Shown one piece after another: positions 4,386-18,233 of a stretch of DNA of 44,086 bases. The stretch comes from a virus: positions 1 through 44,086 of the IMG/VR virus record IMGVR_UViG_3300027969_003477; one strand, given 5' to 3'. The notes under the pieces were generated by a model. It was not told the origin of the DNA and ran no database searches. It worked only from the letters and a program-made list of their open reading frames with translations. How positions within the stretch are numbered: the first letter of the stretch is position 1; the number at the start of each line of letters is the position of its first letter. The position numbers and the translations under genes were made by a program.

Positions 4386-4967
4386 ATGAAACAACTATTA
4401 TTCTTACCTATTGACATTAATATAGATTTAAATGAATTTAAAAGAACCCACACAGAAACTAAAATTCCTACATCCCCAATTCAACCATATTGGGACTCTG
4501 TAGCGTTAGATAAACAATCGGTATTACAAAACAGTGTCAAACAAATAATAGACCAACTTCCATTTTCTTCTATTACTCTAGTGATGCACAAGTTTCAAAC
4601 TAGACCGGTAGGAGCCCATTACGATGTCTATCCGAATCATATGAAATTTGCTCCCGGGGAATTAGACAACATAAATGAAAACGAACCCTGCGGATATAGA
4701 TTAGTAATACACGGAAGTCAAAATGTATTGGAAGTATACGACGGTGCCCAATGGCATTGCCCTGTTTTACCATCTATACCGTGTTGTTATCTTATCGATT
4801 CAACTAGGCTAAGACATAAAGTCAAAGACGATCCTGGTAGAGAGTTGCTGTACTTTCGAGGCATTATTGATAGAAAAAAGCATCTAGACCTTATAGATCG
4901 AAGCATGAAAAAATATAGCGATATGGCGCTTTATTACAAACAACTCCACACCGCTTCGATTATCTAG
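4386..4967 (+). CDS. 2-oxoglutarate/Fe(II) oxygenase-like protein A
   Basis: A 193-residue protein with the iron-binding facial triad pattern of the double-stranded beta-helix oxygenases: H-x-D at H78/D80 (AHYDVYP), a distal His (H144, LRHKV) and a following Arg (R152 or R158) that could bind the 2-oxoglutarate carboxylate. It resembles the aspartyl/asparaginyl hydroxylase-like branch common in marine T4-like phages. It probably hydroxylates a small molecule or a peptide side chain. There is no Shine-Dalgarno; a late-type element sits 4 bp before the ATG. It ends in tandem TAG-TAG and overlaps the end of the convergent desaturase gene by 8 bases. It is the first gene of the accessory island. 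Confidence 0.7.
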   Translation: MKQLLFLPIDINIDLNEFKRTHTETKIPTSPIQPYWDSVALDKQSVLQNSVKQIIDQLPFSSITLVMHKFQTRPVGAHYDVYPNHMKFAPGELDNINENEPCGYRLVIHGSQNVLEVYDGAQWHCPVLPSIPCCYLIDSTRLRHKVKDDPGRELLYFRGIIDRKKHLDLIDRSMKKYSDMALYYKQLHTASII

Positions 4968-5793
4968 TAGCGTTCTTTGCGGCCTCAGCGTCTCTATATA
5001 CAGATATAATTGTTCCGGCTGGATCGAATTCCCACCACTTGCCGCTGGCTCCTGTACCAAAATGACTTGCTCCCGGTCTTCCGTGGTGATTGTTATGCCA
5101 GCACTCGCCTAATACCAAGGGAAACAACCAAGGCACATTGTAGCTCTGATCATTAGTTGGAAAGTTTTTGTAACTCCATGTTTTAACATGATTCAAACAG
5201 TTAGTAAGATTGTAGCTCATCAAAGTAATGAAACAAGGCAATATACTGAAATACAAGAATAGGGTAGGACTAATCAACAATAAGGTTATGTTAAATGCTA
5301 ACCAAATCTTAACATAATTCTCGTGAATAAAAACAATCTCTTTATTTCGCATTAGGTCTACAGCATATCTAGGATTTATTTTGCTTCCATCTAATTTAAA
5401 CATCCATAATATAAAACTGTTTAGAGCACCGTGAATGGGACTGTGCGGATCGTCTTCGGAGTCTGGTTTTCTATGATGGTAGCCTCGATGTATGACAGTC
5501 CAGAATATAGGACTTCCTTGGCCGGCCAAGACACCTGCCCATAAGATAAATCTTTCTTTCCAGGGATTTGTTAACACAAAACTCTTGTGGCAAAAATATC
5601 GGTGATATCCAATAGTGATACCCATAATCATAAAAACAAAATACCCAACGGCTGTTAGTAACAGATGACTCCATTGAAAATTTGTAATCATTTCATACAA
5701 TGCATAAGATCCGATTGTTAGAATAGGTATAACTACTCCTAGCAAGATAGGTACTTCTAATAAATTTTTATATATAGGTCTAAACATTTTCAT
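4960..5793 (-). CDS. membrane fatty-acid desaturase A (acyl desaturase family)
   Basis: The 277-residue protein has the three histidine boxes of integral-membrane acyl desaturases: HRYFCH (H64-H69), HRGYHH (H102, H106, H107) and HNNHH near residue 233. They bind the di-iron centre that inserts a double bond into an acyl chain. Hydrophobic segments (about residues 10-60 and 160-200) fit a membrane enzyme. I chose the start at 5793; a longer reading to 5826 would overlap the upstream gene further, and ATG 5787 is also possible. It is the last gene of a five-gene minus-strand run and directly follows GNAT-like protein A. No cytochrome b5 or ferredoxin partner is seen, so electrons would come from the host. 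Confidence 0.88.
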   Translation of the reverse strand: MKMFRPIYKNLLEVPILLGVVIPILTIGSYALYEMITNFQWSHLLLTAVGYFVFMIMGITIGYHRYFCHKSFVLTNPWKERFILWAGVLAGQGSPIFWTVIHRGYHHRKPDSEDDPHSPIHGALNSFILWMFKLDGSKINPRYAVDLMRNKEIVFIHENYVKIWLAFNITLLLISPTLFLYFSILPCFITLMSYNLTNCLNHVKTWSYKNFPTNDQSYNVPWLFPLVLGECWHNNHHGRPGASHFGTGASGKWWEFDPAGTIISVYRDAEAAKNATR

Positions 5794-6397
5794 TTTTTCT
5801 TTTTCCTGTTCTAACAATATAATCAACCTTAAGTGGACGGCGACCCATCATTGCCCAAACCCATTCTTCATCTGGTTTGGTTCCGGCGGGTATTTCCCAA
5901 GTAGTAGTGTATTCGTATCTGTTATTTATTTGCGATATCATACGCTGATAAAACGCATCAAACTTAGACCATCTATCAGGTTCAATCAACGAATGCCAAG
6001 ATGTTAATTCTCTCTCTTCGCACATATCAAACATAAGTTCCCATAGAGGAGCAACATATTTTCTTAATGTATTAACTGTCGGATCAGATTTGAGATAGAC
6101 AATAACCCAATCATTGTCGTAGGGTGCCGGCAAATCACAACGCCATCCAACAATGGACATAAGAAGATCATCTTTGTATATCCCAAAAAGGTAATGATAG
6201 TCATCGTGTGTTAGATAATATCGTTGTATTCCGGCAGACCATATCTTCCAAAACTGTTCTATTTCTAATAATTGATTTTCAGTATCGACAGTCTTGCCTT
6301 TTCTAATATTAGCCCTATCGGCTTGAGCCGAATGACATCTCCAGAATAGGTCTTTTATTTGATCAAAGTCTGAATGATCTAAACGTTTAATTTCCAT
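5780..6397 (-). CDS. GNAT-fold acyltransferase-like protein A, 205 aa
   Basis: I chose the internal start MEIKRLDHSDF at 6397; the open frame to 6445 would overlap the upstream gene more. The layout (N-terminal helix, then YLFGIYKDDLLMSIVG strand pair, then helix and late strands) looks like a GNAT-type N-acyltransferase fold, but I see no textbook acetyl-CoA motif. Its C-terminal pattern (IPAGTKPDEEW, later GRRPL, YIVR) recurs in the protein encoded at 11483-12100, which has exactly the same length, and more weakly in 6379-6915. It overlaps the desaturase gene below it. An N-acyl or N-acetyl transfer role is a hypothesis. Confidence 0.55.
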   Translation of the reverse strand: MEIKRLDHSDFDQIKDLFWRCHSAQADRANIRKGKTVDTENQLLEIEQFWKIWSAGIQRYYLTHDDYHYLFGIYKDDLLMSIVGWRCDLPAPYDNDWVIVYLKSDPTVNTLRKYVAPLWELMFDMCEERELTSWHSLIEPDRWSKFDAFYQRMISQINNRYEYTTTWEIPAGTKPDEEWVWAMMGRRPLKVDYIVRTGKRKNENV

Positions 6398-6915
6398 GAT
6401 AATAAAGTTGCCGGGTTTCCTGTATACAAAATATCTTGGAAGCAATGTTTTGGATTACCGTCACATACCCAAACACGGTCTTCAAACAGGTTAAAGTTGT
6501 TACCACGACTATTTAAGTGTTCTTTAACATTGATTAATGTATTTCTGGAATTGTGTTCTCTAGAAATAAATGCAATATTAAGATCTTTGTGATTATTCAA
6601 CCAAGCAACCTGGGCTTCTATCATCTCTAAAAATATAGGATCTATCTCTTTACTAACATGCTCTTGTCTAGACACTTTCCATGTTCTATTAAGTATCCTA
6701 TATGCGCCGTGCGGCCACCAGGGGCGTCTAAAGATAGTGCTAAACAGATAAGGATTATTGTCCTTATAACCTATGGTAAATACCTCTTGATCAGCATAAC
6801 GAAAATTTTCTAATTTAAAATTAGAAGACAACTTATCACCAGACAACTCTTGTTGTTTACGGTACTGATCAAATACAGAAATTAACTCGTCAGTAGCCGA
6901 GAAAATCCGTATCAT
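6379..6915 (-). CDS. GNAT-like protein B, 178 aa
   Basis: The start at 6915 overlaps the stop of the upstream oxygenase gene by four bases (ATGA). The protein has FTIGYKDNNPYLFST and a C-terminal segment (CFQDILYTGNPATLLSW) that matches the ending of the two other GNAT-like proteins in the island. It therefore looks like a third, more diverged family member. No signal peptide or membrane segment is visible. Coupled translation with its neighbours suggests a shared pathway. Catalysis is unproven. Confidence 0.5.
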   Translation of the reverse strand: MIRIFSATDELISVFDQYRKQQELSGDKLSSNFKLENFRYADQEVFTIGYKDNNPYLFSTIFRRPWWPHGAYRILNRTWKVSRQEHVSKEIDPIFLEMIEAQVAWLNNHKDLNIAFISREHNSRNTLINVKEHLNSRGNNFNLFEDRVWVCDGNPKHCFQDILYTGNPATLLSWKLNV

Positions 6916-7778
6916 GACATTTCTAACAGAGAAATATCCTTAAAAATTTCTCCATCAAGCAGCATCTGAAAAGGATGCTTGCCCCAATAATCATTTTGAA
7001 CCCAGCATCTATTCTCTTCATCATAGTCAAACCAAGGACTATATCCTAAAACAAAATTTGCTCGATCTGAGTTTGATTCGTTGAATAGTACGGGACGATG
7101 AGGAATGTTTGTGTCCCAGCTATATAGATTTCCTACATCTAAATGATATGGCTCACCTCCTTCCATTTGAAACATGTACTCGGGTGCTGTTGTAATGGGA
7201 ATGTTTAATCGTAAATTAACACAGACAATTTCATCCCTATGCCATGTAAGATCCGATGTAAACTTGTTAGGCAGGTGATTTTTCATTACGGCTAGTCTGC
7301 TTCTTGTTAACGATCTAAGAGATTTTTCTTCCAGGAATGTTTTAATATATCCATAGTTATAAAGACTGGTTTTGTCCACAAATCCATAAGTATCGAAATA
7401 ACTATCTTTTAACTTTTCATGATGGTCCATGGATTTGTAAAAAAATTCTGTATTAGTATTCTTAGGAGTCCCTAATGTGCTGCCTTCGGGATCCATTCCG
7501 TCTTGATGATGTTTATTGTAGACAAAACTTAGTCCGCCGTAGATCTTAGACTCTGCAAATTTTGTTTGCCAACCTCGGAATTTGTATTGGTCTAATGCTG
7601 CTAAAGTATCTTTAGCCAATAACTCGTGATTGTAATTTTGTAACTTAAAAATAAACTTTCTATAAGGCATAGAGTCTTTGATCTCTAACCATTTGTCGTA
7701 GGACTTGGTCTTAGTGAATATATAATTTTCGGTAAGAACATTGTCTGGTACTTCATCTCTGTAAATTTTAACAACCAT
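6912..7778 (-). CDS. 2-oxoglutarate/Fe(II) oxygenase-like protein B, 288 aa
   Basis: The iron triad can be read as H180-x-D182 (TWHRDE) with distal H227 (NIPHRP), followed by R228 as a candidate co-substrate ligand. The stretch NLRLNIPI..YMFQMEGG..HLDVGNLYSWDT has the strand pattern of aspartyl/asparaginyl beta-hydroxylase-like enzymes. The first 150 residues are an extra domain that I do not recognise. Start 7778 has a strong AAAGGAG site with 8-base spacing. It precedes two GNAT-like genes and a desaturase on the same strand. Substrate unknown. Confidence 0.72.
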   Translation of the reverse strand: MVVKIYRDEVPDNVLTENYIFTKTKSYDKWLEIKDSMPYRKFIFKLQNYNHELLAKDTLAALDQYKFRGWQTKFAESKIYGGLSFVYNKHHQDGMDPEGSTLGTPKNTNTEFFYKSMDHHEKLKDSYFDTYGFVDKTSLYNYGYIKTFLEEKSLRSLTRSRLAVMKNHLPNKFTSDLTWHRDEIVCVNLRLNIPITTAPEYMFQMEGGEPYHLDVGNLYSWDTNIPHRPVLFNESNSDRANFVLGYSPWFDYDEENRCWVQNDYWGKHPFQMLLDGEIFKDISLLEMS

Positions 7779-7814
7779 TGTCGTACTCCTTTGTTTTGTT
7801 TTTAAATAGTTCTA

Positions 7815-8630
7815 TCAATCTAGGTCTCGACATTCGGCAACTATTTTTTTAAAGATAGGCTGAAATTGTGCCCAACAAGCATAAGGCGATCCCATTATCT
7901 TTGAAGTAAAAGCTAATGCTTCCTTGGTCATTTGTTTAGGTTGTAAACCAATGGCTTTCATGCTGTTAAGTAAGAACTGAGTCTTACAAGCATTCTCCAA
8001 TGATATGAATAACCAAGCAGCTTCTTCTAAGGTTTCCCCTACTGTATAGATTCCATGATTTTGCAATAATATTGCTTTATTACTTCCTAAGGCTGTGGCC
8101 ATTTTAAGACCTTCCTCCCTGGTAACAATAGCACCGTTGAATTGATCATACACCGCTAACTTATCATGGAACAGACAGGTATCTTCAGTCACATAATCAA
8201 TAGGCAAACCAAATGTTGACCACGCTGATCCATAATGACTGTGTACATGTGCAACCGCAACAATCTCAGGCCTTAATTTTCTTATTACTGTAAAGGTTGC
8301 CCAAGCCGGTCTACTAGCCGGATGGGATCCTTCGATGACATCTCCGTTTGAGTTTACCCGAATCAATGACGACACTGTTACCATGGAAAAATCTACGCCC
8401 ATAGGATTAAGCCAATATGTGTCTGTGAACTCGGGATCACGAACTGCAATATAGCCACCGATTCCGTCAGTATATCCATTTTGGGCAAACACTCTACAGG
8501 AGGCCGCTAATACAATTTTAAGATGATTCCTCTCGTCTTCAAGACTTTTAAATGTTGGCATAGAGGGCAGGGCTCCACCTTTTCTAGAGTCTTTGGTAGG
8601 GTCGTAATTTTCTAATGAAGGAAGATTCAT
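7815..8630 (-). CDS. class II aldolase / adducin-domain protein
   Basis: The 271-residue protein shows the class II aldolase head: zinc histidines in AHVHSHYG (H128, H130) and NHG (H192), plus the N-terminal helix AASCRVFAQNGYTDGIGGY typical of the family. Known members cleave or epimerise sugar phosphates (fuculose-, rhamnulose-, ribulose-phosphate); adducin-type relatives lack activity. I chose ATG 8630 because a TATAAATA late promoter lies at 8663-8656 on this strand, which would be inside the gene if the upstream ATG at 8699 were used. It leads the minus-strand run of aldolase, oxygenase, two GNAT-like genes and desaturase. A role in supplying or trimming a sugar or hydroxy-acid unit is inferred. 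Confidence 0.83.
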   Translation of the reverse strand: MNLPSLENYDPTKDSRKGGALPSMPTFKSLEDERNHLKIVLAASCRVFAQNGYTDGIGGYIAVRDPEFTDTYWLNPMGVDFSMVTVSSLIRVNSNGDVIEGSHPASRPAWATFTVIRKLRPEIVAVAHVHSHYGSAWSTFGLPIDYVTEDTCLFHDKLAVYDQFNGAIVTREEGLKMATALGSNKAILLQNHGIYTVGETLEEAAWLFISLENACKTQFLLNSMKAIGLQPKQMTKEALAFTSKIMGSPYACWAQFQPIFKKIVAECRDLD

Positions 8631-8649
8631 TTTGTTAAGTGCAGTATAA

Positions 8650-8657
8650 GGTAAATA
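8650..8657 (+). promoter_or_regulatory. late-promoter-like element (GGTAAATA)
   Basis: The TAAATA core lies 21 bp before ATG 8679, with GGAG at 8665-8668 between them. It overlaps the opposing minus-strand element by two bases, so the two elements sit back to back. Confidence 0.45.
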
Positions 8658-8663
8658 TTTATA
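8656..8663 (-). promoter_or_regulatory. T4-type late promoter (TATAAATA) for the aldolase run
   Basis: An exact TATAAATA on the minus strand, 25 bp upstream of the chosen aldolase start at 8630. It can drive the five-gene minus-strand unit down to 4960. Confidence 0.75.
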
Positions 8664-8678
8664 TGGAGATCTTAAACT

Positions 8679-9248
8679 ATGCCCTATTTGCGAATTCACA
8701 AATCTAAAAAAACTGTAGACAACGAGGCTTATATTTTGGAAGTTTTTTCTGTAGACCCCGATCCAGTAACAAGAGAAACACTTAGTCAGGATGATAGAAC
8801 AGCTAGAATTTTAGACGAAGATTCTCTAGGAGTTAGATATATTAAATCTCATACATTTTCGTATTTGCCAGGCAGCATTGGTGCCTGGCCTTATTCGGAT
8901 TATCCTAGTGCATTAAGTGCTATCTATCAATACGGCATAGAATTATTTTTATTGGCTGATGCTGGCGACGCCTATTTGAGATTCCACAAACTAAATCCAG
9001 ATACTCGTGAAATCAATACCTATATTGTATTCGAAAGCGAACAAGCATGGACTGATAAAGTAGAAGCCAAATACAATATCTTGAGACCTTTTATAGATGA
9101 AATCACTGACTTTACTGAAGAAAGTAAAACATTAACAGATCAAGAATACAACGATTTTGTTAGTGAAATATTCGTTGATGTAAGAAATATGAAAGAAAAC
9201 GGAAACGGACAATGTAGGTTAGATTGGCTCAATCGATACCGCCTATGA
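8679..9248 (+). CDS. hypothetical protein, 189 aa
   Basis: The start has a GGAG site 10 bases upstream. The protein is soluble and acidic, rich in aromatic residues (SHTFSYLPGSIGAWPYSDYPSA), with alternating strand-like segments and a helical C-terminus (EESKTLTDQEYNDFVSEIF). I do not recognise a family. It stands alone on the plus strand between the aldolase and an oxygenase, and its 3' end overlaps the convergent oxygenase gene by 20 bases. Confidence 0.65.
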   Translation: MPYLRIHKSKKTVDNEAYILEVFSVDPDPVTRETLSQDDRTARILDEDSLGVRYIKSHTFSYLPGSIGAWPYSDYPSALSAIYQYGIELFLLADAGDAYLRFHKLNPDTREINTYIVFESEQAWTDKVEAKYNILRPFIDEITDFTEESKTLTDQEYNDFVSEIFVDVRNMKENGNGQCRLDWLNRYRL

Positions 9249-9747
9249 GAGCATATCGAGTAGTATCAGAATAATTGTAAACTTTATGATAGTGGGCCAC
9301 GTTTATTTTATAAACTTGGCCTTTTTCTTTATCTAGTCGCTGAATATTGTTATGTATTTTAAATAAAAAGTCGCTAGGAGAATTTAGGTCACAATGTAAT
9401 CTAGCAACAGGATCAAAATCCAAATGCCAATCTAGGCCAAACTGTGGCTTCATTATGCCAATTCTTAGTTGAGAGGTCTTTATTTCTAAAACATCCTCGA
9501 TTTCTTTAGTCAATTGCTTGTTAAGAAAAACCTGTACATAGTTTTCTTCAATGCTAGTTGGATCTTCGTTGATATCTCTAGGTGCGTTTGCATACCTAGT
9601 TGATAGTGATTCTAATATGTTGTTGTCTGATGTGTCAGCATACTTTACTAATCTATCACAGAAGTCATCAGATAGCTGTCCTATTTGTTCGTACAGAGGA
9701 TTTTTTCTAAGTAATGATAACTGTTTCAGCAATTCTAATTTGTTCAT
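9229..9747 (-). CDS. 2-oxoglutarate/Fe(II) oxygenase-like protein C, 172 aa
   Basis: A compact protein with H108-x-D110 (DWHLDFDP), a distal His (H152 or H154, AHYHKV) and R164 in the last strand (TTRYALIGG). This is the facial-triad layout of aspartyl/asparaginyl hydroxylase-like oxygenases. The N-terminal 90 residues are helical. No Shine-Dalgarno is visible before ATG 9747; a late-type ACTAAATA lies 22 bp upstream. It is the only minus-strand gene between two plus-strand genes, which suggests a separately acquired cassette. Substrate unknown. Confidence 0.68.
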   Translation of the reverse strand: MNKLELLKQLSLLRKNPLYEQIGQLSDDFCDRLVKYADTSDNNILESLSTRYANAPRDINEDPTSIEENYVQVFLNKQLTKEIEDVLEIKTSQLRIGIMKPQFGLDWHLDFDPVARLHCDLNSPSDFLFKIHNNIQRLDKEKGQVYKINVAHYHKVYNYSDTTRYALIGGID

Positions 9748-9755
9748 GGCGGTCG

Positions 9756-9763: not shown

Positions 9764-9769
9764 ACAAAC

Positions 9770-9786: not shown

Positions 9787-10692
9787 ATGAGTAAAATAAT
9801 TCCAATTTCCAATGTAGAATCGTGGGCGCCAGAGAACAATCCCTTTAAAGTTGTTATAGCTGATATTACTCATAAATGTAATATGGAGTGTAAAAATTGT
9901 TATATTCCAAATAGAGATATAGAAGACATGAATTTAGATCGGTTAGTAGAGTTTGCAAAAAGACTACCAAACAGGGTTGAGTTGAGATTGATAGGTGCTG
10001 AACCTACAATGCGAGATGAACTTCCAGATCTAGTTCATCGGTTAACTTCAGAAACACCGCATAGAATAATTTTGTTGTCTAATGGTTTAAAGTTTGCCGG
10101 CAGGCGGTATACTGAGACTTTGAAACAGGCTGGATTAAAATATCTGTACCTTAGTATGAACGGATTAGACAACGATCACTGGTATGAGCAGATAGATGGA
10201 ATGCCTTGTGCTAAAAATAAACTAATGGCCCTAGACAATGCAGTAGAAGCTGGGTTCAGTTTAGACATTGGATGTATTCTAGTAAAAGGCATCAATGAAT
10301 CAGTAGTTGAAAAAATTGTACCACTGCTTCAGAATGCTGGGATGACTTCCGGTGTTATAAGATTAAAAAATGTAGGACAAGTTGGCCGGTATCAATTAGA
10401 TACTAACGAAAATTTAACCATATCGGAAATCTCAAATCTATGTGCTGGTGCTTGGAATATTGATATAAAAACAATAGAAGACAGCAAGAATATGGGTGTG
10501 GGGGAAGAGTTTGAAACTAGATACTTCTCAACTGATAGTAGCATACATAGGGGATTAGGGCTATGGTGTAAAATTACTGATTGGGAATATATTAGTAATG
10601 GCGGGAAAAGTCATCGTCGAGGCCGTATTACAGAAGATTGGAGAATTGCAGGCTTCAGCGAACATGTAAAGGCCAACGAAGGTCTTTACTAA
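9787..10692 (+). CDS. radical SAM enzyme, 301 aa
   Basis: The CxxxCxxC iron-sulfur motif is present (C31, C35, C38; THKCNMECKNCYIP), followed by strand and helix alternation of the partial TIM barrel and a GxE-like segment (LRLIGAEPTMRDE). The arrangement is MoaA/SPASM-like in its N-terminal half. No clear second cysteine cluster exists, so auxiliary clusters are unlikely. Such enzymes do difficult C-H chemistry on peptides, sugars or cofactors, but no precursor peptide is recognised nearby. It ends four bases into the convergent desaturase B gene. Confidence 0.88.
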   Translation: MSKIIPISNVESWAPENNPFKVVIADITHKCNMECKNCYIPNRDIEDMNLDRLVEFAKRLPNRVELRLIGAEPTMRDELPDLVHRLTSETPHRIILLSNGLKFAGRRYTETLKQAGLKYLYLSMNGLDNDHWYEQIDGMPCAKNKLMALDNAVEAGFSLDIGCILVKGINESVVEKIVPLLQNAGMTSGVIRLKNVGQVGRYQLDTNENLTISEISNLCAGAWNIDIKTIEDSKNMGVGEEFETRYFSTDSSIHRGLGLWCKITDWEYISNGGKSHRRGRITEDWRIAGFSEHVKANEGLY

Positions 10693-11486
10693 CGTCTTAT
10701 AATTAACGGAACAATGTACTTTGCTAAATCAAACTCTCCAGGCTTGATAGCAAAGGTATAATTCCAAGGTTGTAAGTGATGATTGTGATGCAGGCTGTTT
10801 CCTAAACTTAAAAACATCAACAGTTTAGAATTAATATTAACTGAATTATCCCCAGTATCTCCGTTCGTATATCCGTAATTTGTTCCGCTGTGAGCAAATG
10901 TGTTTACCAATCCTTCTAGATGAAAGTGATACACTCCACCACCGATCATAAAGAACACTGACAGATGCCAGTTGATTAGAGTTAATAAAATAAATGTTCC
11001 CCACCATATCTTAAAATAATTCCTGTGCATAAACTTAAGAATTGGGTCTTTTAACAATTTAGGATTTAACTTAGGCCAAACATGTGTCATATTATGCCAT
11101 ATCAACCAGCTCCATAATCGACCCTTGGCAGGAGTGTGTGGGTCAAGTTCTCGATCACTGTGGGCATGATGAAGTCGCATGTGAATTGCTTCAACTGCAA
11201 TAGGAGTTCCGTTCCCACAGAGCAATCCTAAGTATGCTCCTAGGTATGCTATCCACGGATATGTTTCGAAACTTCGGTGACTCCAATACCTATGCATGAA
11301 TATCGTGAAACCTAAATAACCAAATACTAGATATCCTAAAGGTATCAACAATAATGCCCAAGCTGATGTGTAACCTAAGAACACCGAAGCAATTCCTAAC
11401 AGCAAAAATAGATGCTGTGGAATAATTATTTTCCATATATGCGGTTTAAGAGTTGTAACCGATGACTGGTATGCTGTGTTCTTCAT
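10689..11486 (-). CDS. membrane fatty-acid desaturase B
   Basis: The 265-residue protein has HRYWSH (H65-H70), HMRLHH (H102, H106, H107) and HHNHH (around residue 230), the three boxes of acyl desaturases. The second box sits at the same residue numbers as in desaturase A. Hydrophobic segments cover residues 20-65 and 80-100, and two more lie near 160-190. It overlaps the upstream GNAT-like gene by four bases, repeating the gene order of the first desaturase pair. Specificity (chain position, CoA, ACP or lipid substrate) cannot be read from the sequence. Confidence 0.88.
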   Translation of the reverse strand: MKNTAYQSSVTTLKPHIWKIIIPQHLFLLLGIASVFLGYTSAWALLLIPLGYLVFGYLGFTIFMHRYWSHRSFETYPWIAYLGAYLGLLCGNGTPIAVEAIHMRLHHAHSDRELDPHTPAKGRLWSWLIWHNMTHVWPKLNPKLLKDPILKFMHRNYFKIWWGTFILLTLINWHLSVFFMIGGGVYHFHLEGLVNTFAHSGTNYGYTNGDTGDNSVNINSKLLMFLSLGNSLHHNHHLQPWNYTFAIKPGEFDLAKYIVPLIIRR

Positions 11487-12100
11487 AACATTGTCAACCC
11501 TTCTTGCAATGCTGTGTCTACATTGTTTCTAAATTTCTGCTTCAATGTGAACTTAAGAACCATTGTTTCGTGGTCTAAGGGCTTGCCAAAGTATAAAATG
11601 TTATCGAAGAAAGACCATTTTGTGCGCTGGCCAGCAGGAACAACCTCTTCAACTGTTCGTTCGTAATTTAAAAATTTTGGAACATTCTTCATGTAGATGT
11701 TATGATATTTTTTATAAGACAATCTGTTAACATCAGTGGTTCTTAACATATAAAATGTATATCGACTTTGATTTTCTTGTTCTGTTAATAAGTGCATCCA
11801 CAACGAAGACCATCCGTTCTTAACAGGATTGTATATATTATCAGGTTTTAGATTGCGCCAATTGTAGATACCATAAGAAGGCATGACAGATATCGGCGCT
11901 GTTGAGATTGTACTAGTTAATTCTCCATCCCTGTAATAACCGTAAACAGTAGTTGTGTCTCTTTTTAAGATATTATGAGTGTATCTTAAAAATTCTTCTT
12001 CTGACACTGTTTGTCTAGTTTGAGCTATCCTATGATAGGGCAATTTTTTAATGGTATTAGATAACTCTTCCCAGTTGTCCAAAGTTAAGATCTTAATCAT
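11483..12100 (-). CDS. GNAT-fold acyltransferase-like protein C, 205 aa
   Basis: The start is taken at MIKILTLDNW (12100). The longer frame to 12121 would begin upstream of a late-type TAAATA element that sits four bases before this ATG. The protein shares with GNAT-like protein A the same length, a central YGYYRDGEL..S strand pair and a C-terminal pattern (VVPAGQRTKW, ILYFGKPL, MVLK). It is followed by a desaturase in both cases. Motif support for GNAT is weak; relatedness of the two proteins is better supported than their chemistry. Confidence 0.55.
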   Translation of the reverse strand: MIKILTLDNWEELSNTIKKLPYHRIAQTRQTVSEEEFLRYTHNILKRDTTTVYGYYRDGELTSTISTAPISVMPSYGIYNWRNLKPDNIYNPVKNGWSSLWMHLLTEQENQSRYTFYMLRTTDVNRLSYKKYHNIYMKNVPKFLNYERTVEEVVPAGQRTKWSFFDNILYFGKPLDHETMVLKFTLKQKFRNNVDTALQEGLTML

Positions 12101-12129: not shown

Positions 12130-12137
12130 TATAAATA
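12130..12137 (+). promoter_or_regulatory. T4-type late promoter (TATAAATA)
   Basis: An exact match 17 bp before the acyl carrier protein ATG, with AAGGGG at 12144-12149 in the leader. It opens the plus-strand run from 12155 and faces the divergent minus-strand element at 12105-12112. Confidence 0.85.
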
Positions 12138-12154: not shown

Positions 12155-12382
12155 ATGAACTATAAAGATTCTGTGCTACAAGGTATTTCGAAATTGATTA
12201 AAAAACCCATTGAAGAAATTAGGCTAGATTTAGAATTACAAGCTGATCTACAATTAGACAGCCTAGACATTGTTGAACTGTTAATGGAAATTGAAGAAAG
12301 TATGGCTGAAGACTTAGATGCCAATACCTTTGAAAACTGTAAAACTGTAAAAGACTTAATTATTATTTTAGAAGGCATGTAA
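12155..12382 (+). CDS. acyl carrier protein
   Basis: The 75-residue protein is a typical single-domain acyl carrier: a helix-rich fold with the phosphopantetheine site LDSLD (S36) followed by IVELLMEIEE, as in bacterial AcpP. It should be modified by a host phosphopantetheinyl transferase, since none is seen here, and would then carry acyl or aminoacyl groups as thioesters. It is the first gene of a late plus-strand operon with a short unknown gene and a PLP enzyme, and it lies beside the second GNAT-desaturase pair. This placement suggests it presents chains to those enzymes. Confidence 0.9.
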   Translation: MNYKDSVLQGISKLIKKPIEEIRLDLELQADLQLDSLDIVELLMEIEESMAEDLDANTFENCKTVKDLIIILEGM

Positions 12383-12383: not shown

Positions 12384-12698
12384 ATGAGAATAGATGTTAT
12401 TTTTAAAGACGGACCCTATTGGGATCCAGATAAATCAAATGTTGTATTACATCATATCAATCACGGTGTGTCAGAAGAATTTATGAAAAACTCAGTAAAC
12501 TGGTTATTTGGTTTACCATTGTTAACTGTTGAAACTGAAAAATCAAGCACAGCTAACATAAATTGGACTACAAAAATTTATCTAAACGACAACGCCGAAG
12601 CATCTGTGGTCAACGAAATAAAAGAATATTATGAAAAAAATATTATTCCGGAATTGAGCAAGTTAGGTTATAATATTGAAATTAAAATTGAAAGCTAA
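12384..12698 (+). CDS. hypothetical protein, 104 aa
   Basis: It starts one base after the acyl carrier protein stop and ends one base before the PLP-enzyme start, so it is firmly in the operon. The protein is small and mixed alpha/beta with no cysteine (MRIDVIFKDGPYWDPDKSN start, helical C-terminus). I do not recognise a family. Its position suggests a partner of the carrier protein or of the PLP enzyme. Confidence 0.65.
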   Translation: MRIDVIFKDGPYWDPDKSNVVLHHINHGVSEEFMKNSVNWLFGLPLLTVETEKSSTANINWTTKIYLNDNAEASVVNEIKEYYEKNIIPELSKLGYNIEIKIES

Positions 12699-12699: not shown

Positions 12700-13557
12700 A
12701 TGGCAGACCAAAATCCATTGTACAATAAATTAACAAAGCCTATTAGAGACTCAAAAATGGATTTGATTCTTAATCAACTTCCTGTTAGCGAGTTATTCCC
12801 TAAGGATTTAGAATTTAATTTTAAAGAGCGGCTAACTGTAAAAAATAAATTGTTAGATAAATTTATTCCATGGGTTCATGATTTCTTTACAGGACTAGAT
12901 GGATTCAAATACAAGTATATTGCCAATGGAAACTCTGATGCTGTTAACATGGTGTTATTGCAACACAATTATGACAAAATCTTTTATCTAGAAAATGAAT
13001 ATAGTTACTATTCTCATATATGTAATAGCTTAAAACTTCGTTCAGAAGTGTTTAACGAAATCAGTATAGATAAAATAACAATAAATGACCTAGTGTTAAT
13101 AAGTTTGCCATCCAGTTACGATGGTGACAGTGAAGGAAAAATTAAGATCATTAACGAATTACAGAAAAGAAATTGTAAAGTATTTGTTGATGTTGCCTAC
13201 TGCGGATTAACTAAGCCATTCAATTTTCATTTCCAATCAACTAAAAATACATATTTTGCCTTTACATTTAGTAAAACTCTTTCACTGGCTTACAATAGAA
13301 TCGCTGTGATATTTTCCGATACAGAAATTCCCGGATTAGCGGTCATGAATAAAATTGGCTACTTAAATTTATCTGGAGCAAATGCTGCATTAACGCTAAT
13401 GAATAATTTTAAACCAGACTATGTGTATGAAACATATAAAGATCAGTACTCAACAATCTGTAGTAGGCTTAACTTAACTGAAACAAAATGTATACTTTTC
13501 GGTCATGACATTGCCGGCGACAAATTTTGTACCAGTCAAGAATACACGCTATTTTGA
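12700..13557 (+). CDS. PLP-dependent aminotransferase-fold protein (short)
   Basis: Fold type I features are clear: an ANGNSDAV turn near residue 77, the PLP-nitrogen aspartate in VFVDVAY (D164), and the Schiff-base lysine in FSKTLSLAYNRIAV (K192, R200). This resembles histidinol-phosphate/aspartate aminotransferases. With 285 residues it is about 70-100 residues shorter than usual, so most of the C-terminal small domain is missing. It could be an aminotransferase or decarboxylase with reduced architecture, or partly degraded. Start 12700 is the first ATG after the preceding stop. It lies in the carrier-protein operon. Confidence 0.8.
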   Translation: MADQNPLYNKLTKPIRDSKMDLILNQLPVSELFPKDLEFNFKERLTVKNKLLDKFIPWVHDFFTGLDGFKYKYIANGNSDAVNMVLLQHNYDKIFYLENEYSYYSHICNSLKLRSEVFNEISIDKITINDLVLISLPSSYDGDSEGKIKIINELQKRNCKVFVDVAYCGLTKPFNFHFQSTKNTYFAFTFSKTLSLAYNRIAVIFSDTEIPGLAVMNKIGYLNLSGANAALTLMNNFKPDYVYETYKDQYSTICSRLNLTETKCILFGHDIAGDKFCTSQEYTLF

Positions 13558-13564
13558 GATACCT

Positions 13565-14098
13565 ATGTTTATATGGCAATATGTTGATTTAGACCCAGAC
13601 GAAGTTGATCGTATACAGAGATCCTTTATAAAAGCCACATTGACTACTATAAATTTTAATTTCTTTCAACCATTAAAGATTGATACCAATGAATTTATGG
13701 GCATGAAGATTAAAAATCCTGTATTGATACAAGCAGCTCCTTTTAAGTCTGGACAGGTTCATATTGATGTTCGACTCGATAGTAATGTTCTAGCCTTACA
13801 AATACCATTAGTGAATTGTGAAAATAGCGTAACTGAATTTTGGGAAGAAAAAATAACAGAAGAAACTCAGCCATGGATCGATGGCCGGGATGGCGGATCT
13901 CCATACAAGCATATCTCTAGAGAATATTGTAAAAAAATAGACGAGTTTGTATTAACAAAACCCATTGTATTTCGAACAGACATACCCCATAGTGTAACGA
14001 ATAAATCCAAAAACTTTAGAAAAGCAATTAGTCTAAGATTTTATGATGATCCGTGGCATTTACTCAATAATGGCAATGATAGAGTTGACACAGTTTAA
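13565..14098 (+). CDS. 2-oxoglutarate/Fe(II) oxygenase-like protein D, 177 aa
   Basis: The facial triad can be read as H66-x-D68 (VHIDVRLDS) and H142 (DIPHSV), with R152/R158 (RKAISLRF) as candidate co-substrate ligands. I chose ATG 13565, just after the PLP-enzyme stop; an ATG at 13505 in the same frame would overlap that gene by 53 bases. The strand pattern LALQIPLVNCENSVTEFW fits the beta-helix core. It is the last gene of the acyl carrier operon before a 90-bp gap with new promoters. Confidence 0.7.
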   Translation: MFIWQYVDLDPDEVDRIQRSFIKATLTTINFNFFQPLKIDTNEFMGMKIKNPVLIQAAPFKSGQVHIDVRLDSNVLALQIPLVNCENSVTEFWEEKITEETQPWIDGRDGGSPYKHISREYCKKIDEFVLTKPIVFRTDIPHSVTNKSKNFRKAISLRFYDDPWHLLNNGNDRVDTV

Positions 14099-14112
14099 AA
14101 ACAATATATAAT
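14085..14112 (+). promoter_or_regulatory. sigma-70 type promoter
   Basis: Perfect TTGACA at 14085-14090 and perfect TATAAT at 14107-14112 with a 16-bp spacer. It overlaps the end of oxygenase D and lies in front of the glycosyltransferase-like gene. Confidence 0.7.
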
Positions 14113-14158
14113 AGTATTGTGGTACATTACACATTATTTTTATGAGAATAGAGTTTGC

Positions 14159-14166
14159 AATAAATA
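14159..14166 (+). promoter_or_regulatory. T4-type late promoter (AATAAATA)
   Basis: A one-mismatch late element 22 bp before ATG 14189. Together with the sigma-70 promoter at 14085-14112 it suggests that this unit can be read both early and late. Confidence 0.65.
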
Positions 14167-14188
14167 TCTTCCTAAACCATGTTGATAA

Positions 14189-15037
14189 ATGACTCTAAAT
14201 ATCGTATGCACTAGTAAACCTGTAGACGGACTATTATATTATAGTTACGAATACTGCTCATACCTAAACTCATTAGGCATTGATACCAGATTGATCATCG
14301 TTTGCCATCGTAGATTTTCAAAAGAAACTTATATCCAAGCAATCACAAACAAATACATTCATTATCAAAATGTAACATTTGATGATTTCACTCCGTTTCC
14401 AAATGATATAACTTTGATTATGGGTAGAAGTATGATGACACTAAGCTGGCAAGATTTTGATCGTTATGCTGCACCACAACAGGCAACACTGCGCCGAGTG
14501 TTTTCGGACCGTGTGGTTGCTGTCTATTCCGAAAATCATCCGGAGGGTTATCCCAAAGCAGTAGAGTTTTACTCTCCGGCAAAGATTGTTGATTTGTGTG
14601 ACACAGAAGTTTATCCAAACGGAGTTGGTGATCATTTTGAAAAAACTATCAATTTTGAAATATACAAACCCCATGTTAATAATATTCAGTTCAAATATCT
14701 TTTCCAAGGAACCAACGACAAGTACTATGCAACAGCTGAAAAATTCATCAATCAATTCCCCGACTACGGAATCTTGACATACCATGAAAAGTATGTTAAT
14801 ATTAAAAATAATAATGTATTTGCACCCATCGAAAACCTACTGGGAATCTTTGACACTTATGTCTATGCCAAGGAAACATTTGACCCGGCCCCTAGAATTG
14901 TGCAAGAATGCAAATTTTTCGGTAAAGGATTAATTTATCTCAGAGATCAATCGATTCGAGATGGCGGTAGTGTATACTGGCAAAGAGACATTAAACCAAT
15001 AGATGTTGAACCAATAATTGAGGCCATAAAAAAATGA
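14189..15037 (+). CDS. glycosyltransferase-like protein, 282 aa
   Basis: The start MTLNIVCTSKPVDGLLYYSYEYCSYLNSLG has the N-terminal strand-loop-helix of a GT-B Rossmann domain, and the C-terminal part (ENLLGIFDTYVY..DPAPRIVQECKFFGKGLIYL) resembles the nucleotide-sugar side of GT-B enzymes (E/PxxR-x3-E pattern). The middle is less typical. No membrane segment is seen. It precedes the nitroreductase fusion and carbamoyltransferase genes, so it may place a sugar that is then decorated. It has its own early-type and late-type promoters. The call is by pattern only. Confidence 0.55.
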   Translation: MTLNIVCTSKPVDGLLYYSYEYCSYLNSLGIDTRLIIVCHRRFSKETYIQAITNKYIHYQNVTFDDFTPFPNDITLIMGRSMMTLSWQDFDRYAAPQQATLRRVFSDRVVAVYSENHPEGYPKAVEFYSPAKIVDLCDTEVYPNGVGDHFEKTINFEIYKPHVNNIQFKYLFQGTNDKYYATAEKFINQFPDYGILTYHEKYVNIKNNNVFAPIENLLGIFDTYVYAKETFDPAPRIVQECKFFGKGLIYLRDQSIRDGGSVYWQRDIKPIDVEPIIEAIKK

Positions 15038-15058
15038 CTTGATCTTGTGCAATACTTG

Positions 15059-15066
15059 ATTAAATA
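15059..15066 (+). promoter_or_regulatory. late-promoter-like element (ATTAAATA)
   Basis: It lies 25 bp before the chosen ATG 15092 of the nitroreductase fusion, ahead of AAGGA at 15080-15084. It starts the nitroreductase-carbamoyltransferase-methyltransferase run. Confidence 0.5.
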
Positions 15067-15091
15067 CATGTATTGTTGCAAGGATAAACAA

Positions 15092-16051
15092 ATGATATTT
15101 GAAACATTTAAGACACGTAGAGCAGTGGTAGAATATAACACCGCATCAAACATATCAGAGGATATGATCAACAATTTGCTCCGGCAGGCATGGGAGGTTA
15201 CTCCATCAAAGAATAATTTTATGCCTTATACTATTCATGTGTTAGGGCCGCAACATCAATATTACAAAAATATAGCATACCGGAACTGCTTGAATAATGA
15301 AGCTAAAACCGACGGAACTGATGTCGTAAAAAAATATGAGCGGCATCTACCATTTTATGCCAATATCCTAAGCTGTTCTTATCTATTAATTTTTACTCAA
15401 AGATTAGAGAACCAACCAAATCGCTATCAAATAGATGCAATGCGAAGAGGCTGTAAGTTTGAATGTACTAAAGAAGAAACTTTAGAATTTGGATATATCG
15501 GGGCTGCTTTGGAAGTAGGTATGTTCTCTGATGTGTTTGGTGGATTGTGCCAAGAAAAGGGTATCGATGTATCATCAATACTGTGTTTTACTAGAAATTT
15601 AGACACTTGGTCCGAGTTACCGTTTGTTACAAGAAAACCTATCTTGCTGATGACCGCAGGCAAAGCCAAAGTTTATAAAGGTACTAATCCTACTAATCTT
15701 AGACCTGACTATAATAGGATTGTAAATTTTGTTGAGTTGAAACCTAATACAAAAACTCCAACCCAAGTAGAATATGCTCCGGCCACAGGACTAATGACAT
15801 TTACAGTGGCTAACCATGGATTGATCACAGGGTCTAATATTTCTATTTCTACAGACTCATTGACATTTACCTGTGCTCTAGACAATCATGCAACTACTCA
15901 TACCTACCCAAGAAAAACTGATAGAGCATGTCATGCTCTATTACCAATAACCAGCACCGGTGCTGATACATTTACAGTTAATGTGGGAATTTCTCCCAAC
16001 ACTTCCGACCATGTATTTGTGTCGGCCCTACCTGATTCAATTTCTCACTGA
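15092..16051 (+). CDS. nitroreductase-family protein fused to a virion-type beta domain
   Basis: Residues 1-213 look like an FMN nitroreductase-family protein: the opening MIFETFKTRRAVVEYN with the RR-V pattern, then ISEDMINNLLRQAWEVTPSKNNFMPYTI (flavin-binding region) and GYIGAALEVGMFSDVF. Residues 224-319 are unlike any nitroreductase. They carry YAPATGLMTFTVANHGLITGS, SLTFTC and TYPR, the signature of beta repeats found in structural proteins of T4-like marine phages. I chose ATG 15092 with AAGGA upstream; in-frame starts at 15047 and 15068 are possible. The carbamoyltransferase gene follows after eight bases. Family members reduce nitro groups or oxidise azoline rings; the substrate here is unknown. 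Confidence 0.75.
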   Translation: MIFETFKTRRAVVEYNTASNISEDMINNLLRQAWEVTPSKNNFMPYTIHVLGPQHQYYKNIAYRNCLNNEAKTDGTDVVKKYERHLPFYANILSCSYLLIFTQRLENQPNRYQIDAMRRGCKFECTKEETLEFGYIGAALEVGMFSDVFGGLCQEKGIDVSSILCFTRNLDTWSELPFVTRKPILLMTAGKAKVYKGTNPTNLRPDYNRIVNFVELKPNTKTPTQVEYAPATGLMTFTVANHGLITGSNISISTDSLTFTCALDNHATTHTYPRKTDRACHALLPITSTGADTFTVNVGISPNTSDHVFVSALPDSISH

Positions 16052-16059
16052 TATCATTT

Positions 16060-17580
16060 ATGAAAAAAATATTCTCTGTGGCCATGAACATGCATGATCA
16101 TAATACCTATGATGGGGTTGTTCATAGACAAGAAGAGCGATATTCTAGAAGAAAGCATAATATTTTATTTGAGGCTCCGCTTAATCCTCGGCCAAGTAGA
16201 GAATTTTTTGTTGAACAATTTCTACCGTTGTACAAGCAATCATTAGATGATGGCGTTTTTTCCTTCACATATTCCAATCTAGGAAAAGACTTTGTTCTAG
16301 ATCTATTGGAAGAAGTATTTCCCGATACAGATTTCTTAAATTTCAAACCAACCAATTTATGGGATCATTGTCACATAAAAAATTTATATTATATAGATCA
16401 TCACCAGAGCCATGCTGCCTATGCGCTACTGAGTTCTAGATTTGGTGAGTCTGATATTCTAGCAATTGACGGGGCAGGGCCGATGTTTAGTTGTATCTTT
16501 ATTGATAAACGCGGTGCCATTACTGATCTATCCTCTCAACTGTCAATTGGTAGTCTATGGAATAGAGCAGCGCAAGAGTTGGGATTCGGTTACCTAGGTG
16601 CAGGCAAGCTGATGGGATTGGCCGGATATGGAAAACTTAACAGTCAGGTCTATGATCTAACTCATCAATATTTAAAAAATCCCACACATCGTTTGACTGA
16701 CGAAGCAAAGAAAATTATAAAGAGTGTTCCTAAACAAGATGCGGCATACACTTTACAATATGTTACAGTAGAAATTATCAAAAATTCAATACTCCCACTT
16801 AAAACTTCCAATAACATCTGTGTCTCTGGGGGTGTTGCCTATAACGGTTACCTAAATGAAGAACTAACCAAACACTATACGCAAGTTCATGTACCACCAG
16901 CAGTGGGTGACGAAGGCCAAGCCATCGGCACCTACATGCACGCCGACTATACTCTAAATAAAAATATACACCTACCGACAGTCTATGCTGGCGTTGAACA
17001 CGATATTGATATTTCTATTTTAGATGGGTTGACCTGGAAACAAAAATCGTTTGATGATATTGCAAAAGAAGTTGCAGGTGCGATTTCAAGAGGAAAAATA
17101 GTAGGGTGGTATCAGGGAAAAAGTGAATCAGGTAACAGAGCATTGGGTAATCGAAGCATCCTTGCGGACCCTAGAAACCCGAATATTAAAAATATCATTA
17201 ACAGCACCATTAAAAAGCGTGAAGACTTCAGACCTTTTGCGCCAAGTGTGCTTGAAGAACACTATCAGGACTACTTTGAGACTAATCAACTGAGTCCCTA
17301 TATGTCTCGAATTGTTTTAGTTAAATCAGATAAAATTCCAGGAGTGACCCATGTTGACAACACCGCAAGAATTCAAACAGTAAATCGAGACTTCAATCAA
17401 AGATTTTATGATGTCATATATGAATTTTATAAAATTACCGGCGTACCTATGTTATTAAACACTAGTTTCAATTGTCAAGAACCCATTGTTGAAACTCCCC
17501 AAGAAGCAGTTAACACATTTTTAAACACTGATCTAGATATATTGGTAATCAACGATTATATTATTAGGAAACAAAAATGA
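16060..17580 (+). CDS. NodU/CmcH-family carbamoyltransferase
   Basis: The 506-residue protein has both halves of the family: an N-terminal Kae1-like domain (HRQEERYSRRKHN near residue 22, metal-binding DHHQSHAA at 113-120, IDGAGP at 136-141) and a C-terminal YrdC-like domain (GWYQGKSESGNRALGNRSIL from about 349, then REDFRPFAPSVLEE). The family makes carbamoyl-adenylate from carbamoyl phosphate and ATP and moves the carbamoyl group to a hydroxyl of a sugar or other small molecule (Nod factors, cephamycin, novobiocin). The length is slightly below the usual 550-600. It is followed by an overlapping methyltransferase (ATGA). The acceptor is unknown; a product of the neighbouring glycosyltransferase is a reasonable guess. 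Confidence 0.92.
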   Translation: MKKIFSVAMNMHDHNTYDGVVHRQEERYSRRKHNILFEAPLNPRPSREFFVEQFLPLYKQSLDDGVFSFTYSNLGKDFVLDLLEEVFPDTDFLNFKPTNLWDHCHIKNLYYIDHHQSHAAYALLSSRFGESDILAIDGAGPMFSCIFIDKRGAITDLSSQLSIGSLWNRAAQELGFGYLGAGKLMGLAGYGKLNSQVYDLTHQYLKNPTHRLTDEAKKIIKSVPKQDAAYTLQYVTVEIIKNSILPLKTSNNICVSGGVAYNGYLNEELTKHYTQVHVPPAVGDEGQAIGTYMHADYTLNKNIHLPTVYAGVEHDIDISILDGLTWKQKSFDDIAKEVAGAISRGKIVGWYQGKSESGNRALGNRSILADPRNPNIKNIINSTIKKREDFRPFAPSVLEEHYQDYFETNQLSPYMSRIVLVKSDKIPGVTHVDNTARIQTVNRDFNQRFYDVIYEFYKITGVPMLLNTSFNCQEPIVETPQEAVNTFLNTDLDILVINDYIIRKQK

Positions 17581-18233
17581 TTGACCTAAAAAATAACACT
17601 GTAGATTTAGATTTTTTCAAGCGGGTACTAAGAGAGATAAAAAATAATCAAGAACGAGCCTTGGACATTATTGACTCTTTTAGTCAAACACAATTTGATT
17701 CAAAAGTTAAATTATTTGAAGTTATAGATGGTTTAAATATTACCTATGAAAATCTCAATGTGGCAATTTTTGGATCTTGGTATGGGAGTATACTGATAGC
17801 AGAACTGGCCAGTAAAGTAAAAACCATAACCGCAATTGATCTTGACGATGATACTGTTAAAATTGCAAAGAATAAATTTTTTCCCTATCATAATAATGTA
17901 GATTTTATCACAAATGATGTGACCACTACCAACCTATCTAGATATCAAAATTGTAATTTATTCATTAACACATCGTGTGAACACATGGTTCCACCGACTA
18001 AGTGGCAGTTTTGGGCAGGGGTTACAGAAGGCAGTTGGTTTGCATTTCAATCAAATAACATGGAAGGTATTGAAGGACACATTAACTGCGTACAGTCACT
18101 AAGCGAATTTAAAAAACAACTGCCGCCTCACTTCAGCGTATTAGATGAAAGAGAAAACGCAGATTCTAGAGGAACTAGATACACAATAGCTGGAACGATT
18201 GGTAAACTTAAAATGAAATCGGACCCACAATGA
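17577..18233 (+). CDS. SAM-dependent methyltransferase-like protein, 218 aa
   Basis: The start overlaps the carbamoyltransferase stop by four bases. A Rossmann SAM-binding site is visible: FGSWYG (65-70) as motif I and AIDLDDD (86-92) as motif II, then DFITNDVT. NTSCEHM in the next strand is typical of one family found in large phages. The substrate is unknown; coupling to the carbamoyltransferase suggests the same target molecule. It is the last gene of the accessory island, 55 bp before the tRNA-like gene. Confidence 0.75.
   Translation: MIDLKNNTVDLDFFKRVLREIKNNQERALDIIDSFSQTQFDSKVKLFEVIDGLNITYENLNVAIFGSWYGSILIAELASKVKTITAIDLDDDTVKIAKNKFFPYHNNVDFITNDVTTTNLSRYQNCNLFINTSCEHMVPPTKWQFWAGVTEGSWFAFQSNNMEGIEGHINCVQSLSEFKKQLPPHFSVLDERENADSRGTRYTIAGTIGKLKMKSDPQ

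Follow-up and report, generated by a model that had tools for sequence, protein, structure and literature searches.

Gene content of the island

The window, by which we mean the whole 44,086-nt stretch of DNA analysed from a putatively T4-like virus, holds an island of 19 open reading frames at positions 4386–18233, all of them uninterrupted, which we divide into module A (g01–g15) and module B (g16–g19) (Table 1). The island has a lower GC content (approximately 0.32–0.38) than its flanks (mostly 0.41–0.45), and megablast of 18.6–43 kb returned no near-identical GenBank phage. In comparisons with relatives, which covered every gene compared with g17 left out, the ratio of changes at codon position 2 to those at position 3 was 0.19–0.67. 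This points to selection on each compared gene and makes these genes unlike pseudogenes; the 19 island genes appear to be under purifying selection, and the prospect that most were pseudogenes, which the first-pass annotation had named as making a joint pathway unlikely, did not materialize.

Table 1. Island genes, adjoining fibre gene and late-promoter-like sites (window coordinates; L003, L004 and L222 are related loci)
Feature	Position	Strand	Assignment and support
TATAAATA site	2039..2046	+	Late-promoter-like; 34 nt ahead of fibre gene
Fibre gene	2080..4326	+	Tail fibre, Mtd_N N-terminus; borders island; PF18454 38.6 bits, above cut-off
g01	4386..4967	+	2OG-Fe(II) oxygenase-like; HxD and H invariant in 7 homologues; 57% to L003
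g02	4960..5790	-	Membrane fatty acid desaturase A; PF00487 58.5 bits; His boxes; TM-like segments
g03	5780..6400	-	GNAT-like transferase 1; alignment and profile link to g11
g04	6379..6915	-	Putative GNAT-like protein 2; 60% to L003, 54% to L004
g05	6912..7778	-	2OG-Fe(II) oxygenase-like; invariant WHxDE; 76% to L003
g06	7815..8630	-	Class II aldolase; PF00596 135 bits; NCBIfam PRK06208 295 bits, above cut-off
TATAAATA site	8656..8663	-	Late-promoter-like; head of g06–g02 operon; 26 nt 5' of 8630
g07	8679..9248	+	No family; conserved in L003 (38%)
g08	9229..9747	-	Asp/Asn beta-hydroxylase-type 2OG oxygenase; PF05118 26.8 bits, above cut-off
g09	9787..10692	+	MoaA-like radical SAM enzyme; PF04055 60.3 bits; 74% to L003
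g10	10689..11486	-	Membrane fatty acid desaturase B; PF00487 46.2 bits; His boxes
g11	11483..12100	-	GNAT-fold transferase; predicted model pLDDT 87, Z 12.6 to GNATs
TATAAATA site	12130..12137	+	Late-promoter-like; head of g12–g19 operon
g12	12155..12382	+	Acyl carrier protein (ACP); PF00550 35.4 bits; DSL serine is residue 36
g13	12384..12698	+	Small protein, no family; kept beside ACP in L003
g14	12700..13557	+	Short HisC-like PLP-dependent enzyme; PDB HisC E 5e-6
g15	13505..14098	+	2OG-Fe(II) oxygenase-like; H and R columns conserved, HxD in window sequence
g16	14189..15037	+	Putative glycosyltransferase-like; 82% to L222; relatives in 179 viral stretches
g17	15047..16051	+	Nitroreductase-family domain fused to virion structural repeat domain
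g18	16060..17580	+	NodU/TobZ-family O-carbamoyltransferase; PF16861 222 bits; phrog_1601 371 bits; GdmN/TobZ match
g19	17577..18233	+	SAM methyltransferase-like; weak Methyltransf_25, below Pfam cut-offs

Curated models recover the two desaturases, the ACP, the radical SAM enzyme, the class II aldolase and the carbamoyltransferase that the first-pass annotation had listed. Its four 2-oxoglutarate (2OG) oxygenase-like proteins also hold up, by an HxD...H motif in g01, g05 and g15 and a curated model for g08, as does its PLP enzyme g14, in which the SK lysine is invariant in 12 homologues, along with a D and an R. Both desaturases, g02 and g10, carry three His boxes and look like integral-membrane proteins, which implies lipid-like substrates. 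For g09 there are bacterial relatives (40–46% identity) in Alphaproteobacteria MAGs, where no desaturase or ACP lies near the radical SAM genes of this type. Three related GNATs had been proposed: g03 and g11 are indeed related (profile E 2.5e-9), and g11 has the GNAT fold, but profile comparison does not link g04 to either. The P-loop motif for CoA is absent at its expected place in the GNATs examined, g11 included, and FeeM, the type member of N-acyl amino acid synthases that use acyl-ACP on a GNAT fold, is not among the fold matches listed for g11.

In module B, the glycosyltransferase assignment of g16 finds no support, with no Pfam, NCBIfam or PDB match and a poor structural model (pLDDT 56). 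The nitroreductase fusion is borne out: the first ~230 aa of g17 belong to the nitroreductase family (PDB nitroreductases, E 3.7e-6), and the last ~100 (aa 234–333) match virion structural/tail-fibre families (phrog_701, 1.9e-18). This C-terminal domain is missing from the five homologues compared, and the related loci searched held no relative of it. The carbamoyltransferase g18 reaches 127 bits against the NCBIfam NodU equivalog, far below the cut-off of 1000, and falls in the wider carbamoyltransferase family. The proposed methyltransferase g19 is matched only below the Pfam cut-offs; its homologues (43–50%) adjoin g18 homologues in relatives.

Late-promoter-like sites and flanking genes

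The motif TATAAATA occurs three times in the window, which is not above chance; only its placement is informative. All three sites sit 18–34 nt 5' of gene starts, namely those of the fibre gene at 2080, of g06 if it begins at 8630, and of g12; the start of g06 is probably 8630 rather than 8699, given the distance of the promoter-like site. Related phages show an excess of the motif at gene starts (4.8% versus 0.9%), and its position at the head of each island operon and of the fibre gene fits the late expression that had been suggested.

The earlier delimitation of the island stands on the side of the fibre gene, whose Mtd_N-type N-terminus is shared by the fibre genes next to relatives' islands, but not on the other, since neither ARAGORN nor Rfam finds a tRNA (0 each). 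Other tail-fibre-type proteins are encoded at 24386–26384 and 32357–41899, and a ThyX gene lies downstream, beyond the island. The window also encodes KdsA (equivalog, 421 bits against a cut-off of 242) and KdsB (164 bits, below its cut-off), which together indicate envelope sugar chemistry. However, KdsA appears in 0 of 15 related records, some of them fragmentary, and the KDO link may for that reason be coincidental.

Recurrence of the two modules

One other phage lineage has module A gene for gene at the corresponding place in its genome, and it is the only independent relative seen with the complete set. The site is syntenic and hypervariable: loci L003 and L004 share a phosphoesterase flank (87%) and carry different gene sets. 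The module B operon, comprising glycosyltransferase-like, radical SAM, sugar aminotransferase, nitroreductase, carbamoyltransferase and methyltransferase genes, recurs in dozens of contigs and in Mosig, a cultured phage of Pelagibacter. Often it lies opposite a block of desaturase, GNAT and 2OG genes that adjoins a similar fibre gene, which is the layout of the window. Among 60 distinct g16-type loci, a radical SAM gene is present at 57, a DegT-type aminotransferase at 51 (its PseC/LegC/ArnB-like class judged from one representative), a carbamoyltransferase and a nitroreductase at 41 each, a methyltransferase at 30 and a related fibre gene at 12; the divergent 2OG/desaturase/GNAT block accompanies 18 of the 44 testable loci. 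The major capsid protein gp23 was found in 9/12 and 3/13 related records, while among the genes noted in the 44-kb window there was none for a capsid protein.

A related operon with the order GNAT-ACP-PP-loop ATPase-GNAT-desaturase recurs in 60-odd contigs. For 68 distinct PP-loop proteins, the next gene encodes a GNAT in 61 of the 63 cases that allow the test, and 60 have a desaturase no more than 2.6 kb away; of 80 control loci, only 2 hold such a GNAT and 6 a desaturase. The recurrent order and a natural fusion, in which one GNAT is joined to an ACP, link the ACP to the GNATs. A search of 84,980 genomes gave no bacterial relative of the PP-loop enzyme, a weak negative as it used two short peptide patterns only. 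Both this enzyme and the DegT aminotransferase of relatives are absent from the window.

Single, scattered genes in related phages would have spoken against the joint function originally proposed; neighbourhood comparison instead finds them together in the same divergent layout, with module A conserved in another lineage and module B in Mosig as well as dozens of contigs. Metabolic genes of phages are usually read one at a time, as boosters of host metabolism. Two multi-enzyme sets that keep their order and layout in many aquatic phage contigs, partly beside fibre genes, suggest that viruses bring entire pathways for making molecules of their own.

A cultured counterpart is found in Pelagibacter phage Mosig EXVC030M (MT647606), where a similar divergent island lies between tail genes at 54.7–73.4 kb, with desaturase, PLP, 2OG and GNAT genes on one strand and nitroreductase, g16-homologue, radical SAM, carbamoyltransferase (56%) and methyltransferase genes on the other. 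It differs in having a gene for a sugar aminotransferase and a larger number of radical SAM genes, and we detected in it no ACP, aldolase or second desaturase. The island receives no discussion in the genome announcement (PMC7892664). More broadly, large variable islands with metabolic genes beside tail-fibre genes are known from pelagimyophages, as the host recognition cluster (HRC), and from cyanomyophages, as hyperplastic regions; a position between VrlC and gp14 is one of the features of this kind of island. Their noted content includes cassettes of radical SAM genes, and freshwater genomes add fabF, a stearoyl-CoA desaturase and a 2OG oxygenase (PMC7029224, PMC3037559). Our island resembles them in adjoining fibre genes and in its variable content at a syntenic site, but the available parts of those descriptions contain no ACP-GNAT-desaturase unit or module-B-type operon, and PMC7029224 uses neither of the terms 'carbamoyl' and 'nitroreductase'. 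The statement that no such phage system had been described must accordingly be narrowed: fibre-linked cargo of this kind is established and the Mosig island is in GenBank, while the set as a pathway has, as far as we could find, apparently not been described.

A possible acyl-glycan pathway and its alternatives

We tentatively read the island as a late biosynthetic locus for an acylated, carbamoylated and methylated molecule of amino-sugar type, most likely placed on the envelope of the infected cell, and favour this reading while placing it somewhat short of an even chance. From the enzyme families we infer that the ACP would carry an acyl chain, to be desaturated or hydroxylated by the membrane desaturases and 2OG oxygenases, and that the GNAT-type transferases, which lack the CoA-binding loop, would move the acyl group from the ACP to an amine made or modified by the PLP, aldolase and radical SAM enzymes. 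Module B would finish the molecule with its glycosyltransferase-like protein, flavin oxidoreductase, carbamoyltransferase and methyltransferase, and the product, a lipoglycan or acyl-glycan exposed late in infection, could alter receptors against superinfection or virion loss.

This logic is that of the rhizobial Nod factors, in which an ACP-borne unsaturated acyl chain is used and an amino-sugar is N-acylated, methylated and carbamoylated. The island shares a NodU-family carbamoyltransferase (g18) with that pathway, but Pfam matches none of its 19 products to NodA, NodB or NodC. Several observations count against an envelope acyl-glycan: we identified no lipid-A or LPS ligase in the island, the DegT and PP-loop genes are absent, the full module A has a single relative, g16 lacks fold support, the related records have no KdsA, and 2OG oxygenases and radical SAM enzymes are widespread in such phages in any case.

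The same chemistry might instead decorate the virion, most likely the adjoining tail fibre, changing receptor binding or stability. We consider this unlikely, though it draws on the direct adjacency of the island and several relatives to an Mtd_N-type fibre gene, on the late promoters common to that gene and the island operons, and on the virion-structural domain of g17. That fusion is absent in the five homologues, however, and a soluble fibre fits poorly as the substrate of a set that includes integral-membrane desaturases and an ACP.

It seems improbable to us that the island makes a natural product which is released at lysis and diffuses away, such as an antibacterial, a signal or a siderophore-like compound. 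The enzyme families are typical of natural-product clusters, and an ACP with several membrane desaturases resembles JamABC and other alkyne/polyyne cassettes (PMC8406139), although the island has no matched fatty acyl-AMP ligase, thioesterase or rubredoxin and its relatives carry a PP-loop ATPase instead. A further parallel is the tyz acyl-oxazolone cluster of Mycobacterium, where the product of an N-acyltransferase is acted on by an oxidase of the nitroreductase superfamily, but the phage set is far larger, has glycan-type enzymes and lacks a ThiF-like cyclase (PMC10404671). In Pfam-type searches none of the 19 products matched a transporter, resistance gene, acyl-AMP ligase or NRPS/PKS, and a diffusible product leaves the fibre adjacency unexplained.

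We give little credence to the idea that there is no single pathway and that independent auxiliary metabolic genes have gathered at a hypervariable site. The different sets of L003 and L004 by shared flanks would fit it, and single phage desaturases have been described as membrane-fluidity genes in Arctic brine viruses (PMC7300359), but module A is conserved gene for gene, and the GNAT-desaturase and g16–g19 sets co-occur strongly and in order, which argues otherwise. Nucleic-acid hypermodification, in which the carbamoyltransferase would act on hydroxymethylated bases, is very improbable: a phage carbamoyltransferase does act on 5-hydroxymethylcytosine (PMC8670742) and ThyX lies downstream, but membrane desaturases and an ACP have no evident role in modifying bases. 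In the modified contigs of that study the carbamoyltransferase goes together with thymidylate synthase domains, where here there is just ThyX beyond the island, and in the unmodified contigs it stands next to glycosyltransferases (PMC8670742).

Returning to the acyl-glycan reading, its wider form, in which T4-like aquatic phages own a dedicated, conserved, phage-specific pathway for a new viral class of acyl-glycans (lipoglycans), borne on infected cells or virions and related to the GNAT-ACP-PP-loop ATPase-GNAT-desaturase operon, is one that we advance with more hesitation. Part of such a pathway could be tested directly with phage Mosig on Pelagibacter HTCC1062. If real, it would help to account for the large number of 2OG oxygenase, radical SAM and carbamoyltransferase annotations in T4-like phages from the sea.

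The island and its closest relatives

The virus record of 44,086 bases is a linear fragment in which all 19 island ORFs are open between a tail-fibre gene (Mtd_N) and orf18636, and the AT content of the island exceeds that of its flanks. The two FA_desaturases (g02, g10), the class II aldolase (g06, PRK06208 subfamily), a radical SAM enzyme, an Asp/Asn hydroxylase, the acyl carrier protein (ACP, g12) and the carbamoyltransferase (g18) all score over curated cut-offs. Scores under cut-off were obtained for three further 2-oxoglutarate (2OG)-type oxygenases with a conserved HxD...H motif, for the HisC-like PLP enzyme g14, which has the invariant SK lysine, and for the nitroreductase-family domain of g17, which is backed by a profile match. 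Also under cut-off, g11 has a GNAT fold in its predicted structure (pLDDT 87), which matches GNATs with Z 12.6 across 142 residues at an rmsd of 2.9. Of the first-pass annotation, the glycosyltransferase identity of g16 stays putative, and no tRNA was found for the tRNA-like gene said to border the island.

Coordinates of features in the window and in related loci (L numbers)
Feature	Locus	Position	Remark
Mtd_N tail-fibre gene	window	2080-4326	island border
ThyX	window	19156-19827	thymidylate synthase
KdsB-like gene	window	20201-20857
QueD/6-PTPS-like gene	window	27118-27624
KdsA	window	28401-29246	421 bits; equivalog cut-off 242
PHROG glycosyltransferase	window	29209-30027
Tail-fibre-type protein	window	32357-41899	3180 aa
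GN0-ACP fusion	L020	7644-8408	viral contig
Mosig_00083, g16 homologue	L035	16563-17429	GenBank name 'molybdenum cofactor biosynthesis enzyme'; no supporting Pfam family
Asp/Asn-hydroxylase-type genes	L127	4147-11439	viral contig; 6 in ~8 kb
GNAT, Asp/Asn hydroxylase, radical SAM triad	L140	4877-6907	Alphaproteobacteria MAG
Same triad	L142	6129-8202	Alphaproteobacteria MAG

All 15 genes of module A (g01-g15) are kept, at 38-76% identity and at the same genomic site, in two near-identical contigs (L002 and L003) counted as one lineage. Their left flank shares with the window phosphoesterase and phosphatase-like genes that are 82-87% identical, and their right flank holds a homologue of window 22337; they differ in that g15 is relocated to the opposite end and one 2OG gene is added. 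In a third phage, L004, this left flank adjoins a different filling: g02-g05 homologues, two more desaturases, several additional 2OG proteins and, judged by sequence, an apparent B12-type radical SAM gene. Codon-position differences indicate selection on every gene compared, and since the PLP enzyme is short across its whole family, it is not a truncated relic.

The window holds three copies of the motif TATAAATA, about as many as chance would give, with all three sites just upstream of starts: those of the fibre gene, of g06, which heads the minus operon g06-g02, and of g12, which heads the plus operon g12-g19. The g06 start implied by its site, 8630, lies within the longest ORF and was picked partly on account of that site; it agrees with a 272-aa L003 orthologue and with a profile match from residue 35. 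Across related loci 4.8% of genes have the motif near their start, where motif density would predict 0.9%. This placement fits T4-type late expression, and is no proof of it.

Module B and its relatives

The strongly conserved g16 has relatives encoded in 179 viral stretches. Among 60 distinct g16-type loci, all compared loci being metagenomic and 'distinct' meaning a differing protein sequence and not a separate origin, we found radical SAM (57/60; like the 2OG counts, at superfamily level from broad profiles), a DegT-type aminotransferase (51/60), carbamoyltransferase and nitroreductase (41/60 each) and methyltransferase (30/60). The aminotransferase representative is closest to the nucleotide-sugar enzymes PseC/LegC/ArnB/WecE, under their cut-offs. 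Upstream on the opposite strand, 18 of 44 testable loci carry at least two kinds among desaturase, g04-type GNAT, 2OG and PLP genes; in 12 g16-type loci there is also a fibre gene whose N-terminus is that of the window's fibre gene, and four (L250, L251, L254, L294) repeat the window's order of fibre, minus block and plus block. Both arms are present in the cultured Pelagibacter phage Mosig (L035). The window's module B (g16-g19) is reduced, having neither the DegT gene nor a radical SAM gene between g16 and g18, and its nitroreductase g17 is the only one among the homologues compared with a virion-protein-type C-terminal domain.

A wider viral operon

Contigs from the desaturase g02 search show a recurring order: a GNAT (GN0), ACP, a PP-loop ATPase similar to asparagine synthetase/QueC, a g11-type GNAT, a desaturase and 2OG genes. 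A scan seeded on the PP-loop protein only gave 68 distinct proteins; the next gene was a g11-type GNAT in 61 of 63 testable cases, a desaturase was no further than 2.6 kb away in 60 and a 2OG gene no further than 4.5 kb away in 51, and GN0 was present in 43 and ACP in 25. Comparison loci anchored on the neighbouring phosphoesterase (n = 80) held a desaturase in 6, a g11-type GNAT in 2 and ACP in none. In L020 the GN0 GNAT and ACP are naturally a single polypeptide. Relatives of the PP-loop protein were found neither in 50,697 phage records nor in bacterial genomes searched with limited patterns; most large records examined contain a T4-type gp23. The window is without the PP-loop enzyme, and has ACP, the GNAT-desaturase neighbours g11-g10 and g03-g02, and 2OG genes.

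PMC7029224 and PMC3037559 describe this island type as a host recognition cluster or hyperplastic region. PMC3037559 also reports that two co-isolated MED4-infecting cyanophages carry genes for ACP, ACP synthase, two asparaginyl hydroxylases and a taurine dioxygenase. Viral desaturases were previously reported singly, as membrane-fluidity genes (PMC7300359). A phage carbamoyltransferase is known to use 5hmC as substrate (PMC8670742). In literature searches that covered open-access papers, we found neither operon described as a pathway.

The L140 and L142 triads are soon followed downstream by very large proteins, of 2065-2396 aa or more, and may form a system that modifies proteins or peptides. 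The contig L141 (NHBR02000105.1, labelled Muricauda sp. TMED12) has fibre-type genes next to genes for radical SAM, 2OG and PP-loop proteins, and appears to be phage sequence that was binned in a bacterial MAG.

The proposed product and its possible location

The island desaturases appear integral-membrane and would therefore need lipid-like acyl chains. ACP together with GNATs suggests transfer of an acyl group to an amine; the motif [QR]xxGx[GA] gave two matches among 24 plus 20 GNAT sequences, one of them off the CoA-binding turn, and this near-absence is compatible with an ACP-bound donor. The sugar aminotransferases of relatives, with the carbamoyl and methyl transferases, suggest an amino-sugar core. 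Lipid-like chains, acyl transfer and such a core thus lead to the reading of a tailored acyl-glycan.

Placement of this putative acyl-glycan on the envelope is favoured by the membrane enzymes and by the window's KdsA (KDO-8-phosphate synthase) and KdsB, which give this one phage two enzymes dedicated to KDO; the KdsA/KdsB support is weak, because KdsA is absent from 15 related records. Placement on the virion is favoured by the adjacency to the fibre gene and by the g17 fusion.
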